From Nautilus pompilius (Eukaryota > Mollusca > Cephalopoda > Nautilida > Nautilidae): a DNA stretch of 64,000 nt. The position numbers and the translations under genes were made by a program. The stretch is taken from NCBI GenBank assembly GCA_018389105.1, contig JACATO010001005.1:186001-250000 (forward strand). The letters are read 5' to 3'. Shown one piece after another: positions 1,286 to 61,762 of this stretch (its first letter is position 1; each line of letters starts with the position of its first letter). The notes beneath the pieces are model-generated. The model was given only the letters and a program-made list of their open reading frames with translations, was not told the DNA's origin and did no database searches.

Positions 1286-1381
1286 CTCTTTGTACTCTTG
1301 AATCTGGCTTTGGGTGAACATGGCGAAAATGTTCGAGGTTGCCCGCTGTGCGCGTTTGACGGTTTTTCCCCTTTTGCGGGC
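1286..1381 (-). CDS. RLC alternative exon, phosphorylatable smooth/non-muscle type
   Basis: Ninety-six bases encode 32 residues, with acceptor TTTCAG before 1381 and donor GTGGGC after 1286, phase 0 on both sides. The peptide starts with a basic stretch ([10 protein letters not shown]), then [13 protein letters not shown], then [13 protein letters not shown] carries the Thr-Ser pair that myosin light chain kinase phosphorylates in vertebrate smooth and non-muscle RLC; joined to MTEE these are about residues 19 and 20. It lies 71 bases downstream of the muscle-type exon in transcript direction. Including both exons would keep the frame but would duplicate the QxQExKE helix, so mutually exclusive use is inferred. 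Confidence 0.85.
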
Positions 1382-4300
1382 CTGAAACACAGAAAAAGGT
1401 GGACACGGTTAGGGATGGAGGGAAAAGGGTTGATAAGAAACGCTTCTCCTACCTCTTTCAACTCCTGCATCTGTCGCTGAGACAGCTTGGCAGGTCTTCT
1501 TTGTCCCTACAAAAATTGAAACGGGCATTTTATTGGGAAATGAGATAAACAGAGAAAAAAGATCTGTCACTTACAACCAACCAACCATCAATGGAAAACA
1601 ATCTTTTCTTTCTTAATGAAAGGGTCAGTAAGACAGTGGGTGGTGGGTGGTTCATTTGATGTCTTTTTTAAAAAATTTGTTCTAAACCAGCCATTTACGT
1701 CCGAAATCATGCTGCAGCAGCAGTGGGACTCTCATCAACAAACACCTGAGATGTGGAATCAAAATGGTACTTAAGAATATCCTCTAAACTTTACATGACA
1801 CGTTTTTCGTTCATTCTAGCTAAGGAAAATACAATAACCACTGTGTTAATGTATATTTAGAATGAATAAAAGTAACATTTCCCCCTTCTCGGTCTTACAA
1901 AAATGGTCTATGCACCACACTACTCAGCCCTCATACCCTGCAAATGATTATTTTTTCTATTGTCTTAATTTTGCGTGACCTCTTTGTTATATACAGTAAC
2001 CCCAAGAAAAGTAATATCGTTGAAATAAGAGTCCTGCCATGCAGACCCCATTCTTGCATGGTGTATTATCCAGAATATTTAGTCTCTCTACTGTACATCA
2101 TATCAAAGAAATTCAAAATTTAAGTATAAAAATGACAAGAATTTAATTGAACATTTATTTTTAGCTGTGAATGTAAATGACTTTGATACAGGTATTGCAG
2201 GTAGTCTTCGGTGGCTGATTAAATATTAAGCAGTCTGCAATGGCTCCATGAATACATTTCTTTGCAGGGACATATTCCTTGGAACTCCAGCAGTAATTCA
2301 AGGCAAGATGTTTCACTTACCTCTTCAGTCATTGTCAGTTCTGCAAAATAAATAATAAAAACATTTAATCTTCAGCTTATCAACACAGAAATTAATAAGC
2401 TGATGTTTTCTTTTTACCTAAATCCTTCAGTTCCAGGAGACACCTTGCCAAAGAACTGTCTGTAACTTGACAACAAACAATTCTGAAGTCTGTTATTAGT
2501 CGGATTTCATTTGTTTTATAACTAGATTTTTCTATTTTTTTTTTGTTCAGTATCTATCATTAATTTTAAGAGAATTATAATTAAAAAAAATCTTTTTAAA
2601 TACTTGTCAGACATATGTGCAAAAACACAGCTCTCATCATGGAGATTATCCCCTTTTGTGTATGTCATAGTTGTGCATAATGTCATATGGCATCCAATTG
2701 AGCAAGCTAGCGTGCTGTGTACAAATCCTGAGCCACTACCTTTTCTACTCTTACCTCGAGAGCCAAAATACAAGATGGCAGTCCCAGATGTATTGATATT
2801 TCAGTAAATAATTTTAGCACCCAAAATGGATGTTTAGTATTAATGTGCGCTTCAGTATTTAATTACTCTTTAAATGAACCATGCTTTCTTTAACCCAGAG
2901 GGAAGAAGCTATTTCAAGACAAAAATCTAGACAATATTTATTATTAGTTATATCAGTAATTAGATGAATGGCAACTATAAATCTACAATAAAAAGTTTAA
3001 ATTAGCTACATACTCAAAAATATAATTTCAATCTCTCTCTCTCTCAGATAACATTCATTTTCCCTCCCTGTTGATTCTCTGCACATGAACAACTTGCTCC
3101 TAATTGAAAATTTAAATGTCATCTTCATTTCTAGCAGTCAGTTATAAAATATTACAGGGATCCTGCAAAACTTTGTCAATGTCTGTACTTTGTTTTTGTT
3201 ATTATTGTTATAAAATTACTGTACCTAAAAAAAAAAAAACAACTGGTGGATTTGGGTAATTTTTCCACATACAAAGGGGACACTGGGACTAGTTAGTATG
3301 GAGGAAAGTTGTTACAGTGCCACACATAAAGTTGATTACAGTAACCCTCCGTCATATTGCAGCCCCGCTATTTCGCAGCATTGTTTATGAGTTTCGATCT
3401 CCGCTGATCTGTTTTAGAAGCATCTTGCAGGGAGAGAAGCTGTTCGCCTTGCTGTTTTATTGATAACCCCAAGGATGCCACCCAAACGCCCATCATCTAA
3501 GGCTTCTGGTGAGCCAAAGAGGAGAAAGTTCTGGACCATTCAACAGAAGGTGGAACTTCTCGATATGATAAAGGAAGGACAGAGTTACGCTGCCATAGCC
3601 CGTCATTACGGTATGAATGATTCAACGGCTCACTACATCAATAAAGATGAGAAAAATATCAGGGCAACCGCTTCGCTGTGCACCAACGAAGGTGCAAAAC
3701 GAGTTATTTCTATCTGCAATAAAAACATCGTCAGGATGGAAACTGCCTTGGCTTTTTGGATCCAAGATTGCCGAAAGAAAAACATCACTTTGGATGGTAA
3801 CACCATCAGGACCAAGGCAAAGAAGCTGTACGACACTTTTGCCGATCAAAGAGGTTCTGAAGATGATTTGTGTGTTTTCCATTGCTCTTGCTTTCTCTCA
3901 ATATCTTTTGTGTGTCTAAATGTGTTTCTATTGTTTTAAAAGTGTGTTTAAAGACCTTAAAATGTATTTAAAAGTACTGTAAAAGTTATAAAAACATGCC
4001 TAGGGTGTATTTAAATAGGGTATTTATATTTCGCGGATGGGTCTGGAACGTAACCCCTGCAATGGAGGGGGAACTACTGTATACAGATAACTCATCTATA
4101 CATTCAGTTAGGAATAACCGGTGCTGTAACAACTCACCCATCTTTCCTATGTTACAAGCCCACATAGGAGGCCAAACTGAGCCGACCTGGGATTAAACTT
4201 GACACCCCAGCCTTGGAAGTTCAGTAGTCATAACCACTGGTCACTGCTTTGAAGATGGCTACCGGATTTGATTTTAAAACTCATTTACACTACAAAAATA

Positions 4301-16653: not shown

Positions 16654-18329
16654 TTAAACAACCTTTGTCCTTCTAACCCTTTTGTGTGGAGTGTGATCAT
16701 CTGTATTTATACCCCAGCAGTAGTCTGCCAACATGCCAGGGTTCCATTTTCCTTTGAATCGTCGCTCCATCACTGATATATCCTGATGAAATCTCTCGCC
16801 ATGTTCATCACTCACATCACCAAGATTTTCCGCAAAAAAAATCCAAATGAGAGTGGAGCACATGAACTTTTAGAGACATGTTACATCCCATGTCATGGTG
16901 ATGACTCAGCAGATCATTCACAACTTGCACATAGTCTTTTGAACGATGTTTGCCCAGGAAGTTATCGCAAACTTCCTTGAATGATTCAAAGGCAAGCTTC
17001 TCTTTTCTCATGAGATGTGTGATGAAGGTTTCATCAAGTACAATTTTTCAAATTTGGGGACCTATGAAGACACCTCCTTTAATTTTAGCTTGACTCAGGG
17101 AAGGGAACTTTTCTGCATGGTATGCAAATGCGGAGGATTCCTTGTCCAAGGCTTTCACAAATTGCTTGAACAAACCAAGTTTAATATGCAAAGGTGGTAA
17201 AATAATTCTATCACTTTTTACAAGTGGTTTGTGCATAATGCTGTGTTTTCCTTGCTCAATTTCATCTCGGATCGGCCAATCCTTGCGTACATAATGTTCC
17301 GCTCTTGCTCTGGAATTCCATAAGTACAGGAAGCAGCAAAATTTAGTATAGCCAAGCTGTAGGCCAGTAAGCATGGCCACAACCTTAAAATCTGCACAAA
17401 TATGCCAGTGATGGTCATCATACTGTATGCTTGTTAGAATTGCTTTCAGATTTTCATATGATTCTTTCATGGTTGTGCTATAAGCTATGGGAACAGAAGG
17501 CAGAGTGTTACCATTGTGTAGCAGAACAGCTTTGATGCTGTTCTTGGATGCATCTATGAAAAGTCGCCAGTTGGGTTATATTGTATGGAATTTCCAGTTG
17601 CTCAAAAAGTTCGGTGATGTCATTACAAAAGCATAAGTCACCCTTCATGGTGAATGATGCAAGTAGATCCTCTGTACGTTTTATGTATAGTGTTATTTTC
17701 ACTCCTTTCTCAAGAAGATTACGTTCTTGAAGCCTTGATGCCAGAAACTCACTTTTGTCTTTGGTTAAATAGAGATCCCTGCACAAGTCATTTAGAGCCT
17801 CTTGAGAAAATGGTATTGGTTTATTTTCGCTTTCTGGATCACTGGGCTCCATATATTCACCACTGGAATGTTCATCAGCACTGCTGGAAGTCTGCATTTC
17901 TTGATCTGGAGGTTGGGGCACAGGCAAATTTTCTGAGTGTTCTACTGGGCGCACTGCTGATCGCAAATTTGGGTAAACGATGTGTTTCCTTTTCTTTGCT
18001 GTAGTACAGCCTGTAAAATCATGCTGACAGAAATAGCAATCATTAGAGTGATCTTTCTGCTCACGCCAAATCATTGGCACACCAAACTCCATGTGAACAT
18101 GTTTTCCTGCATACCAGGCACTCAGTGTCTTCACACATGTAAGGCAACACACATGAGGAGCCCATGACTTATCCTGGTCTCCTAAGTAACAATCGAAGTA
18201 CGCCTTGTACATTTCCTTGATATGGTGTGTAATACTGCGCTTTTCTTTAGCAAAAGTCAATTCCCCACATATGTAACAAAATCTGTTTGGATCATTTTTG
18301 CACTGTCTTGCACTCGTGGTTGAAAACAA
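16654..18329 (-). pseudogene. Dispersed invertebrate transposon-like gene (GERFHQDI family), lightly damaged
   Basis: The minus-strand coding region is almost continuous. It starts with a Cys-rich module (FCYICGELTF, then CCLTC, then CYFC), passes an acidic linker, and continues with the conserved blocks CNDITELFEQL, LGYTKFCCFLYLWNSRAR, LPPLHIKLGLFKQFVKA, GVFIGPQI, CNMSLKVHVLHSHLDFF and SDEHGERFHQDISVMERRFK. I recall this protein as a very common uncharacterised family in insects and molluscs, copy-rich and therefore probably transposon-borne; its transposon class is not clear to me. Damage is light: a frameshift near 17580, a TGA in place of the usual Arg just after GPQI (about 17045), and a frameshift at an A8 run near 16833. 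No terminal repeats were found. It is probably a recent insertion or a recently dead copy. Confidence 0.65.
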
Positions 18330-18399
18330 ATAAGATCTGAAACAAACAAAATAAAATTAAACACAAGCTTTGAGGTATAAAGTATTAAGTGATCAACTC

Positions 18400-40000: not shown

Positions 40001-43000
40001 AAATAACAATGAACCTGAACAACTTTTGAAAGAACCAGTCATCTATTTTTCTTTTCTGTTTCATCAAATGATAAAAATAAAATTGTATAGTTTACTACTG
40101 TATTAGGATAATATGGAACTTGTGTAATCGTTGATAGTAATAATGCCACCTAAGGTATCTGTGTCTGGTTTATGCAGCTTGGAGAGACTATCCTTATTGT
40201 GTTTGTGTTCCATTTACTTTACCAATACTACTGAATTTTTATTTGCATTACTAGAATGTTCTACATTATTTCTTATTAGAAAAACTGATAACTTATTTGT
40301 TATTCTAAGTTTTCTTTCCACTCACAAGCATCCAATTTCCTCCATTGGGTGTGGCTGTATTTCTGTGGTTAGTCAAAATTGTTACCAGAATAATCTACAT
40401 ATGTCATTTGCTTGCTGCTGCATTTCTGTCTTATGAACTTTTATTTCTGTTGTAAAAACTTTGTTCATTTTCTGTCAGTCATCATTGCGAATAGTCAGCT
40501 TTCTGGATGTCTTATTTTAAAATCTCATACCTTAATCAGTTCTTACAGGGTATCTTTTGTCTGTGTTAGCAAAATGAACAGGAACACCTTGTAGGGTCAC
40601 ATTAGTTGCACATTTTACCCTGGCTTTTCATTATTAATAACGTTTCATGTAACAAAATGCTTTATATCTGGAAAAATATACAACATCCTCATCACAACCA
40701 GTTCTCTACACCAGATTTCCAGCTAATTTTCTCCCTCTCTTGCACATCGCAGGTAAGTAAGTCAAAGCTCACATTAGTGCCTCTGTTTCTGCTGTAAGCT
40801 ACTTGCTTATTCAGTTAATATTTAAATAAGGAGGTTTGTTTACTATTCTGTGACTACCTGACATTATAATACTACAGTTGAGGTTCATCTTGTCTTTTAG
40901 AGCAATGGATGAGAATTTGGTGTTCACTTCAGAATTTTGTCTGTTATACAATCATTTTTCTAAATGTTTTTGAAGTTTTCCTACATATGAACAAATATAA
41001 CTACTTTTTTCTTTTTTTTTTAGTAACCTCTGGTAAAGAAGATCAGAAAAATGGTAAGTATATACCTTTGTGTATGATTCAGAAAAAGTTACTGTCACTA
41101 TGGAATAATAATACTAATAATAATACCTACCAAAAGCTGACCTTCATCAGATCCTTATCTTTATTTTGCTAATACAGTGCGCGCCACGTAATAGAATCAC
41201 TTCAGGCCGATGTACATTGATTCTACTAACCGGCATACATGTTTTCTTGAGATAAGGCTCACGCGAGAAAAAAATGGAAATGGACAATGGAAATAAGAAG
41301 TAAGCCGCTGCCTCCTGAATCAAGCTGGTTATCTTTCTTTAGTGTACATAGCAACCAATTGTCAGGAAAAGTGCGAGATTTAAACATCCTATGGTCAGCG
41401 TTATTCTACTGGTCACCGACAAAAACATCAGGTCTTCTCTTTACACCGAGAAAAACGCATCAATCTTTCCCTGTGTCATGCTGTCAGCAAGTCCGCGTGA
41501 TTCCTCTCATTCCAGTTTTTTCATGAGTGAGAAGTCATCAAACCCATGCCCATATAAACATCTTTTGAGTGTATCAAGAGCAGCGTACTTCGTGGTTCGA
41601 GGAGACTGGCGTGTCATCCTCTATCTCTTCGTCTATTGGCGCATGTGCCTCTGCACCCACTGCGGCAAGATTCAGCACGTCAGCAATAATATCATCGTCA
41701 ATAATCTCCAGCTGTATCCTAGTCTCTGTTTACATCAATCCATTCTTCCTGAGAGATAGACACCAAGCTTGTGCAAAGAAAATTGTGGCCCTTTTCCATC
41801 AAGTGTATTGTCACTTTTTTGTCCCTTCAATGCTGATTTGCGCCAGCAGTTCTTGATAGAGATGCTCTGTGTGTCCTCCCATACAATATCCAGGAGTTCA
41901 ATTGAGTCCTGAAGACTTACTTTTTTCGCCAACTCTGATGCTGTCGTGGAACTGTCATCACTGTCCAACTGCTGCACAATCCGCTGACACACATGATGAC
42001 GATAGTGAGCTTTAACCATGCGTATTATACCTTGATCTCAAGGTTGGAGAATGGCAGTTGTATTCGGTGGAAAGAATGCGACTTCTATGTTGGTCAGACT
42101 GAAATTTTTTGGATGGGCAGAACAGTTGTCAACGAGGAGGAGCACTCGCTTTTTTTCACCATGTAGTTCATTGTCCCAGTCGGATAACCACTTCTTGAAG
42201 AGCTCCATTGTCCTCCAAGCTGAACTGCTCGCAGCGTAGTCAACTGGAAGACTCTTCACCCCTTTAAAACACTGTGGATTCTGACTCTTACCGATGGCAA
42301 ACATTTTCCGTTTCTCACCAATGGACGAACACGCAAACATGACTGTTATTCTTTCTTTTGGTTGCTTTGCACTTTTGCATCTGTCATCTTTGAATGTGAG
42401 GGTTGCATCAGGAAGAGCTCGTATGTACAGCCCACTTTCATCAGCATTCCAGATCTCTTGATCAGTGTATCGCTTTCGGAGGTCGGGCCAGACGTGCTGT
42501 AGCCGGTGTTCACATGAATCCGTATCAGCCGTCTGTCCTTTGCCATGTAGTCTTTTGTGAACAAGACCTTCTCTCTTTTTGAACCGTGTGAACCAACCGT
42601 CTGACGGTTTGAAGTTAGACACATTCAACTTTTTGGCCAAATCCTCACCCTTTGACATCACCACCTTTGCCAAGATGGATATGTTCTTCTTCCTGGCCTG
42701 ATCCACTCATTTCACGAGAGCTGTCTCAACAGTAGGTGGTTTACCAGGTTCTTTTCCTCTTCCTTGTGGAGTCAATAGCTTTCTCGATGTGAGAGCGATC
42801 TTTCAGTTTACACTGCAGTGTTCTCTGAGAAACTTTCAGTCCGGCTGTGGCTTCCCATTGTGAAGTCTGTAAGAAACAAAAGATCTTTTTGAACAGTGCA
42901 TAAATGCGGTAAGTTCGTCATAAGTAACCAAGCATCACAGTCTTGAATTCACACTGAATTTATCATCATACATGTTACATGTAAGTGAAATCCTTCCTAT

Positions 43001-60450: not shown

Positions 60451-60465
60451 TAATCAATTTTTTTT

Positions 60466-60858
60466 TCGAGTTGTCGTCCTTGGGTTTGTTTTTGTTTTGT
60501 TTTTTTTTAAAGCTTTCGAGTTGTCGTCCTTGGGTTTTTTTTTTTTTTTAAAGCTTTTGAGTTGTAGTCCTTGGGTTTGTTTTTGTTTTTTTTTTTTTTA
60601 AAGCTTTCGAGTTGTCGTTCTTGGGTTTGTTTTTGTTTTTTTTTTTTTTAAGCTTTCGAGTTGTCGTCCTTGGGTTTGTTTGGTTGATTATTTTTTTTTT
60701 AAAGCTTTCGAGTTGTCGTCCTTGGGTTTGTTTTTGTTTTGTTTTTTTTTTTTAAAGCTTTCGAGTTGTCGTCCTTGGGTTTGTTTGGTTGATTTTTTTT
60801 TTTTTTAAAGCTTTCGAGTTGTCGTCCTTGGGTTTGTTTGGTTGATTTTTTTCTTTTT
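60466..60858 (+). repeat. 51-bp minisatellite, eight copies
   Basis: Units begin near 60466, 60517, 60559, 60608, 60657, 60709, 60762 and 60814, each with the core CGAGTTGTCGTCCTTGGG, then a T-rich spacer of one of two kinds (GTTTTTGTTTTG or GGTTGATT), then AAAGCTTT. Unit length varies from 42 to 53 because of the T runs. Confidence 0.95.
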
Positions 60859-61762
60859 TAAATAGCGGCCTTCACTAAAAAACACAATGTCAGAGTTCTC
60901 GCCCCTGAACAGCGTCACTCGGAACAAAGGCCGAATGTAGCCCCTGTCACCATGTACTTCTGTTAATCGTAATTTTTTATTCAATTCTTTTGAAGCCAGA
61001 CTTCAAATCTTCTTCCCCCCCACTTGAATGTGTTTTTCTTTAACGTAACCTGTATTGCCAGTAGTTTTGTTTTATCTCCCTTTCTTCTGATTAGATGAGG
61101 GTTAAGCATAAACTATACCACATTTTCATCTTTTGGCCCATTAAAAGCTCCAATCAGGGATCTCACAGAGTTCATAGCAATACACTGGTAACATTTTCTT
61201 GACGATATAAACACTTCTGGATATCGTATGAGCTTCCTCAGCAGAGCTTTCGGTTGTGAAATCTTTACGATTTGAATAATTGTGTTACCATCGTGATTAT
61301 TCTTTTACTTTCATTTTACTTCTAGATTTGTATTAATTCTATTTTTACCTTATATTTTGAAAACAAAATACCACGAATCCAGGGAAATTACAGCAGTTCT
61401 ATTTTCACTCACCGTTTTTTGTTTTTGGCGGGAGGGTTCTTTAAAATTAAAATCATCCACCATCTTTTTGGTCCCTAACTGACGCCTTCAAAATGTAAAG
61501 TATCTTTTCCCGTGTTAAAAGCGAGTTTTCGGATTGTATTAAAATCTAACCCTTTTAACTCCGGATCCAATTGGTTCAAATTCCACGATTTATCATTTAT
61601 CGCTCCGATGTAAAAGCAACCTAAGCTCGCGATCCCTAATTTTGTAATCCAGAATAGGGATCTACCCTACCACACACTTCTCCCTCCCACCCAATAACCG
61701 GGGGAGCATGTGGACGGTTGTGGGTTCAGATTGTTAATATTTTCTTATATCCTGACCGACAG

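Follow-up and report, generated by a model that had tools for sequence, protein, structure and literature searches.

Alternative N-terminal exons, one with a kinase motif, before a single EF-hand body in a probable muscle myosin regulatory light chain gene of Nautilus pompilius

Introduction

Can one gene of a cephalopod supply two forms of the myosin regulatory light chain (RLC) that differ in how they are controlled, by choosing between two neighboring N-terminal exons? The question is raised by a 64,000-nucleotide stretch of the Nautilus pompilius genome, hereafter the window (C960:186001-250000), in which two such exons, A and B, lie 71 nt apart, and in which exon B alone of the two carries a kinase motif. 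A reading made from the letters alone (the sequence-only reading) had proposed that the exons are mutually exclusive and that the choice between them swaps the control mode of myosin. Here, we examine the locus, its continuation below the window and related genes elsewhere in the assembly. The genomic architecture of the locus is well supported, and the gene is probably, as judged from sequence, a cephalopod muscle myosin RLC gene. We propose that a shared start exon encoding MTEE, either A or B, one at a time, and five muscle-type exons would together make up a single RLC gene, a reading to which we assign a probability of roughly three in four.

Exon structure of the locus

The start exon and both alternative exons lie on the minus strand, at the following positions of the window.

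Shared start exon: 2321..2340, minus strand; ATG at 2332, codons ATG ACT GAA GAG (MTEE), ending in phase 0; donor GAG/GTAAGT, an 8/9 match to the consensus CAGGTAAGT
Exon A: 1453..1506, minus strand; 54 nt, 18 residues; N-terminus of squid muscle type, lacking the RXXSXBB motif; donor GAG/GTAGGA
A-B intron: 1382..1452, minus strand; 71 nt; candidate branch point CTAAC at 1412-1408
Exon B: 1286..1381, minus strand; 96 nt, 32 residues; N-terminus of smooth/non-muscle type; donor GAG/GTGGGC, a 5/9 match to the consensus and the weakest of the three donors
RATSN codons: 1331..1345, minus strand; inside exon B

Inspection of reading frames and splice borders bore out the coordinates, phases, spacing and common QxQExKE ending that had been given for the two exons. 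The joins among the start exon, A and B are all in phase 0, acceptors ending in AG and donors beginning with GT, and the acceptor of exon B is pyrimidine-rich (14/17). Junctions 2321-1506 and 2321-1381 are both in frame, yielding products of 22 and 36 residues, respectively. The exons are homologous (24 of 36 bases are identical over their last 12 codons), adjacent, in the same phase and flanked by the same exons, as tandem exons are. For A and B alike, no ATG lies between the exon and the stop codon before it, and both therefore need the upstream start exon; the same absence, together with the 71-nt gap, rules out alternative first exons or promoters for either. A third alternative exon was also discounted, as a pattern scan for KE ends across 14 kb of the minus strand (window position 4000 to C960:176001) gave seven matches, among which A and B were the sole RLC N-termini. 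When the 311-bp A-B stretch was searched as DNA against the assembly (727.6 Mb in 2558 contigs), its sole match was itself.

Identity of the two N-termini

Against PDB chains, the product of exon A had a single match up to E 10, to the squid mantle RLC (3i5f_B, E 0.065), and that of exon B had 15, headed by MYL9 and its relatives (6xe9_C, E 1.5e-8) and including 3pn7_B (E 0.0053). A Pfam search with the short A and B N-termini gave no match. As a control for chance, the window was shuffled 100 times with dinucleotide composition preserved, and scores were compared among the matches listed. On this measure, the MYL9 N-terminus scored 45.4 bits on exon B, where the best shuffle gave 20.4, and 3pn7_B scored 32.7 bits against 25.4, such that exon B is well clear of chance. 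The full squid RLC scored 27.7 bits on exon A, and shuffles reached 30.0 and then 26.6 among the matches listed; by score alone exon A fails the control, the best of the 100 shuffles being higher. Its identity is instead drawn from the match to 3i5f_B taken together with its position between the start exon and exon B and with the squid-like exons downstream, and the exons that come next in this gene encode the residues that follow the exon A part in the squid RLC. The proposed assignment, of A to a cephalopod muscle-type N-terminus and of B to one bearing a kinase site, agrees with the closest structural matches of each.

A single muscle-type body below the window

Muscle-type RLC exons continue on the same strand below the window, and the EF-hand body that they encode begins 6.1 kb below exon B.

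Downstream exon 1: C960:181204-181129, minus strand; 92% to squid 3i5f_B over the aligned stretch
Downstream exon 2: C960:179980-179880, minus strand; 88% to squid 3i5f_B over the aligned stretch
Downstream exon 3: C960:178154-178076, minus strand; 65% to squid 3i5f_B over the aligned stretch
Downstream exon 4: C960:177306-177258, minus strand; 89% to squid 3i5f_B, containing ENMGDNF
Downstream exon 5: C960:176667-176566, minus strand; 56% to squid 3i5f_B, with a stop codon at its end

This body is closest to squid and scallop muscle RLCs (56-92% to 3i5f_B) and does not class as MYL9/12-type. A tblastn search of the 20 kb below the window, at E 1 with three RLC chains and the MYL9 N-terminus as queries, returned no second EF-hand set, from which it follows that exons A and B both precede one body. 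The sequence-only reading had named, as one of the cases that would overturn it, an exon B belonging to a different gene with its own EF-hand exons; tblastn below the window gave no sign of such exons, and the muscle-type body, the only one found, lies downstream of both A and B, in keeping with two alternative exons of one gene.

One feature of the body calls for comment. If canonical sites are used, the frame slips by one base between the first and second EF-hand exons (C960:181129/179980); another acceptor would preserve it, at the cost of two residues that are present in squid and other muscle chains. Such an offset would fit a locus that is a damaged copy, or misassembled, with the working gene elsewhere. 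Against this, the three later EF-hand joins are in frame, DNA searches with two stretches of the locus each matched the locus alone, and no other muscle-type RLC body was found in the 727.6 Mb in an exon-by-exon search, in which weak exons can escape. We therefore consider a working gene elsewhere highly improbable, and, given the single DNA matches and the lack of another muscle-type body in that search, read the offset as probably an assembly error or an allele.

Separate smooth/non-muscle genes in the same genome

The assembly also contains two RLC genes of smooth/non-muscle character. That on contig C308 is MYL9/12-like: the 116 residues that were traced match MYL9 at E 4.1e-68, and its EF-hands are of MYL9 type. 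A single exon of this gene holds the ATG, RATSN and the first EF-hand, and a look through the next 10 kb did not find its C-terminal exons. A second smooth/non-muscle-like gene, on C623 (MSTSYKSKKRQRSRTQRCTSNVFAMFNQAQIQEFK), likewise has its own EF-hand exons. In the region C623:1543957-1546772, RCTSN replaces RATSN and an intron falls one codon before the KE/A boundary. Each of the two genes thus has an ATG in frame and carries both a kinase motif and its own EF-hand exons, and since both are present, splicing at C960 is no substitute for separate smooth/non-muscle genes. The suggestion that splicing supplies the two kinds of light chain in place of separate genes is accordingly not sustained.

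The existence of these genes, together with the far greater similarity of exon B to MYL9 than to the squid RLC, could be taken to suggest that exon B is part of yet another separate smooth/non-muscle RLC gene which adjoins exon A by chance. We regard this as extremely improbable, as every RLC-like exon detected on C960 below B is of muscle type, exon B has no start codon before its motif, and the smooth/non-muscle-like genes on C308 and C623 carry RATSN or RCTSN exons of their own.

The kinase motif and maintenance of exon B

Defining the kinase motif as RXXSXBB (PMC2674065, section 8), we find it as RATSNIF at residue 17 of the product that joins the start exon to exon B, and at the same position in the C308 and C623 products; it is absent from the product of the start exon and exon A. 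That the spacing to residue 17 is kept provides independent support for the join between MTEE and exon B. Over 25 codons compared between exon B and the C308 exon, nine are identical, 11 differ synonymously and five nonsynonymously, with 24 base differences of which 15 are at third positions. In 20,000 simulations with 24 random substitutions, five or fewer amino acid differences never arose (mean 15.1); the NG86 estimate of dS for this pair was not finite (returned as -1). Exon B is under purifying selection relative to its C308 paralog, and recent copying of B from C308 is ruled out by the differences at 15 of 25 third positions.

These data also bear on whether exon B might be a decaying relic that has fallen out of use. 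Its donor is the weakest of the three, and the squid muscle RLC whose structures have been solved is of the A form, both of which would suit a relic. Yet the frame of exon B is open, its acceptor tract and kinase motif are intact, selection relative to C308 is strong and the residue spacing is kept, and we judge a relic very unlikely. In our preferred reading, exon B remains one of two N-termini of a working gene and would be used in mRNA.

Exclusion between exons A and B

Introns of about 60 nt are spliced in some animals, such as flies. In the present assembly, the shortest of 18 sampled myosin-head introns is approximately 165 nt, as against 71 nt between A and B (the sample comprises 18 adjacent exon pairs from the 74 myosin-head matches listed; 65 of 226 first-look candidates were scored). 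The candidate branch point A of CTAAC, a guess from sequence, follows 43 nt of the A-B intron counted from the 5' splice site of exon A. A comparable spacing is described for the cis-enforced exclusion of exons 2 and 3 of rat alpha-tropomyosin (Tpm1), where a distance of 42 nt from the 5' splice site to the branch point blocks exon joining (PMC6572816); the branch point is guessed in Nautilus. By this analogy, the short intron and the candidate branch point 43 nt into it make steric exclusion of A with B plausible, and to that extent the earlier idea that the 71-base gap could enforce the choice is consistent with the spacing.

Exclusion need not be complete. The lengths of A (54 nt) and B (96 nt) are both multiples of three and all junctions are in phase 0, so double inclusion, double skipping and every other combination would stay in frame. 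Both exons could therefore be real and yet be chosen as cassettes, either joined, to give a 54-residue N-terminus, or both skipped. The A-B intron, however, is shorter than all 18 sampled and has its candidate branch point at a Tpm1-like distance, and a double N-terminus appears in none of the few RLC alignments listed; cassette choice is thus unlikely in our estimation, and use of A or B one at a time remains the reading that we prefer. A scan for Rbfox- and PTB-like motifs from window position 2400 to 200, run without a control, recorded a single TGCATG, at 2043, and a run of CT around 961-989.

Calcium and phosphorylation control

The body shared by the two forms contains the MGD motif (within ENMGDNF, in the fourth downstream exon). 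According to PMC2674065, section 8, in molluscan myosins this motif helps to stabilize the site at which the essential light chain binds calcium, and its glycine occurs in RLCs of calcium- and phosphorylation-regulated myosins alike; the "single glycine" of PMC13089345 is a different matter, belonging to the heavy-chain tail. As the A and B forms have the same MGD-containing body, both should be calcium-competent, with B adding phosphorylation. The notion of a swap in control mode, or of a smooth/non-muscle product from this gene, therefore needs revision: the B product would keep the muscle body with its MGD motif, such that a phosphosite would be added, and not exchanged.

Comparison with known systems

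The closest parallel lies in two scallop chains that are each named myosin regulatory light chain, 3pn7_B and 2os8_B; we take these to be the catch-muscle and striated-muscle forms, respectively. After the KE/A boundary, 133 of 133 aligned residues are identical between them, as against 13 of 22 before AFTMID, where 3pn7_B carries RATSNVF and 2os8_B lacks the motif and reads ADKAASGVLTKLPQKQIQEMKE. Identical bodies suggest that both scallop forms come from one gene. Like the Nautilus gene, this pair has two N-termini, one with a kinase motif, a KE/A boundary and one body; the scallop pair is known from protein sequence, whereas in Nautilus the two lie as exons in a single gene. A further difference is in the tail of the RATSN segment, MYL9-like in exon B and more muscle-like in 3pn7_B (RLPQKLMQEMKE), which makes descent of the two pairs from a common ancestor less than certain. 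An exon pair such as that described here would nonetheless explain the scallop-type RLC pair at the level of the gene. In catch muscle, two RLC isoforms occur, of which the catch-specific one has a phosphorylation site (PMC12040844, a review citing Morita and Kondo 1982), and the review gives the role of this isoform as unknown.

Among other light chains, the squid mantle RLC (LC-2, 3i5f_B) shares exon A, with 12 residues identical, and the downstream body, and its record lacks an alternative RATSN form. MYL9 and MYL12B, like the C308 and C623 products, resemble exon B in having the motif at residue 17, and exon B has FAMF-QSQIQE-KE in common with smooth/non-muscle RLCs. The Nautilus gene differs from the latter in its muscle-type body and its two N-terminal exons. 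Myosin variation through exon choice is likewise known from the mutually exclusive exons of muscle myosin heavy chain (PMC3912159), in contrast to which the exons here belong to a light chain and the choice between them would add a regulatory phosphosite. Within the open-licence literature, we found no description of an RLC gene whose N-terminal exons are mutually exclusive; older papers on scallop light chains fall outside that body of work, and an earlier report of such an arrangement is quite possible.

Proposed mechanism and implications

Taken together, we envisage that where exon A is chosen, a classical mantle-type light chain without the kinase motif would be made, and that where exon B is chosen, the same body would acquire a smooth-type N-terminal tail with an MLCK-type site, RATSNIF. 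The 71-nt intron may be too short for joint use of the 5' splice site of A and the branch point of B, which would enforce exclusion at least in part. By analogy with catch muscle, some cells, perhaps those of smooth-like or tonic muscle, could thereby have myosin under both calcium and phosphorylation control, provided that a kinase acts on the site. We further suggest, tentatively and at somewhat less than even odds, that the exon pair is older than the split between bivalves and cephalopods, and that splicing alone adds a phosphorylation switch to a calcium-regulated muscle myosin, cell by cell. If so, one motor would carry two stacked controls, selected per cell, and a muscle gene would have retained or captured a smooth/non-muscle N-terminus while separate smooth/non-muscle genes persisted. 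A gene-level account in a cephalopod makes the role of the catch-specific RLC isoform testable. As the RLC forms would differ by one exon, they lend themselves to counts of junction reads, to isoform-specific probes and to comparison on the same heavy chain.

Other features of the window

An open frame on the plus strand (3418-3936), opposite in strand to the start exon and approximately 1 kb upstream of it, encodes CENP-B_N and Tc5-type DNA-binding domains. A transposase fragment at 42041-42706 (minus strand), which we take to be Pogo/Tigger-like, has DDE_1 (E 1.2e-21) and Tc5 transposase DNA-binding domains. At 17051-18356 (minus strand), open frames of 175 and 282 codons overlap; the longer had no Pfam match at E 0.01, and the two are perhaps the relic of a mobile element. 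Finally, a tandem array of about eight copies of a T-rich unit, with a period of 53, occupies 60464-60862.
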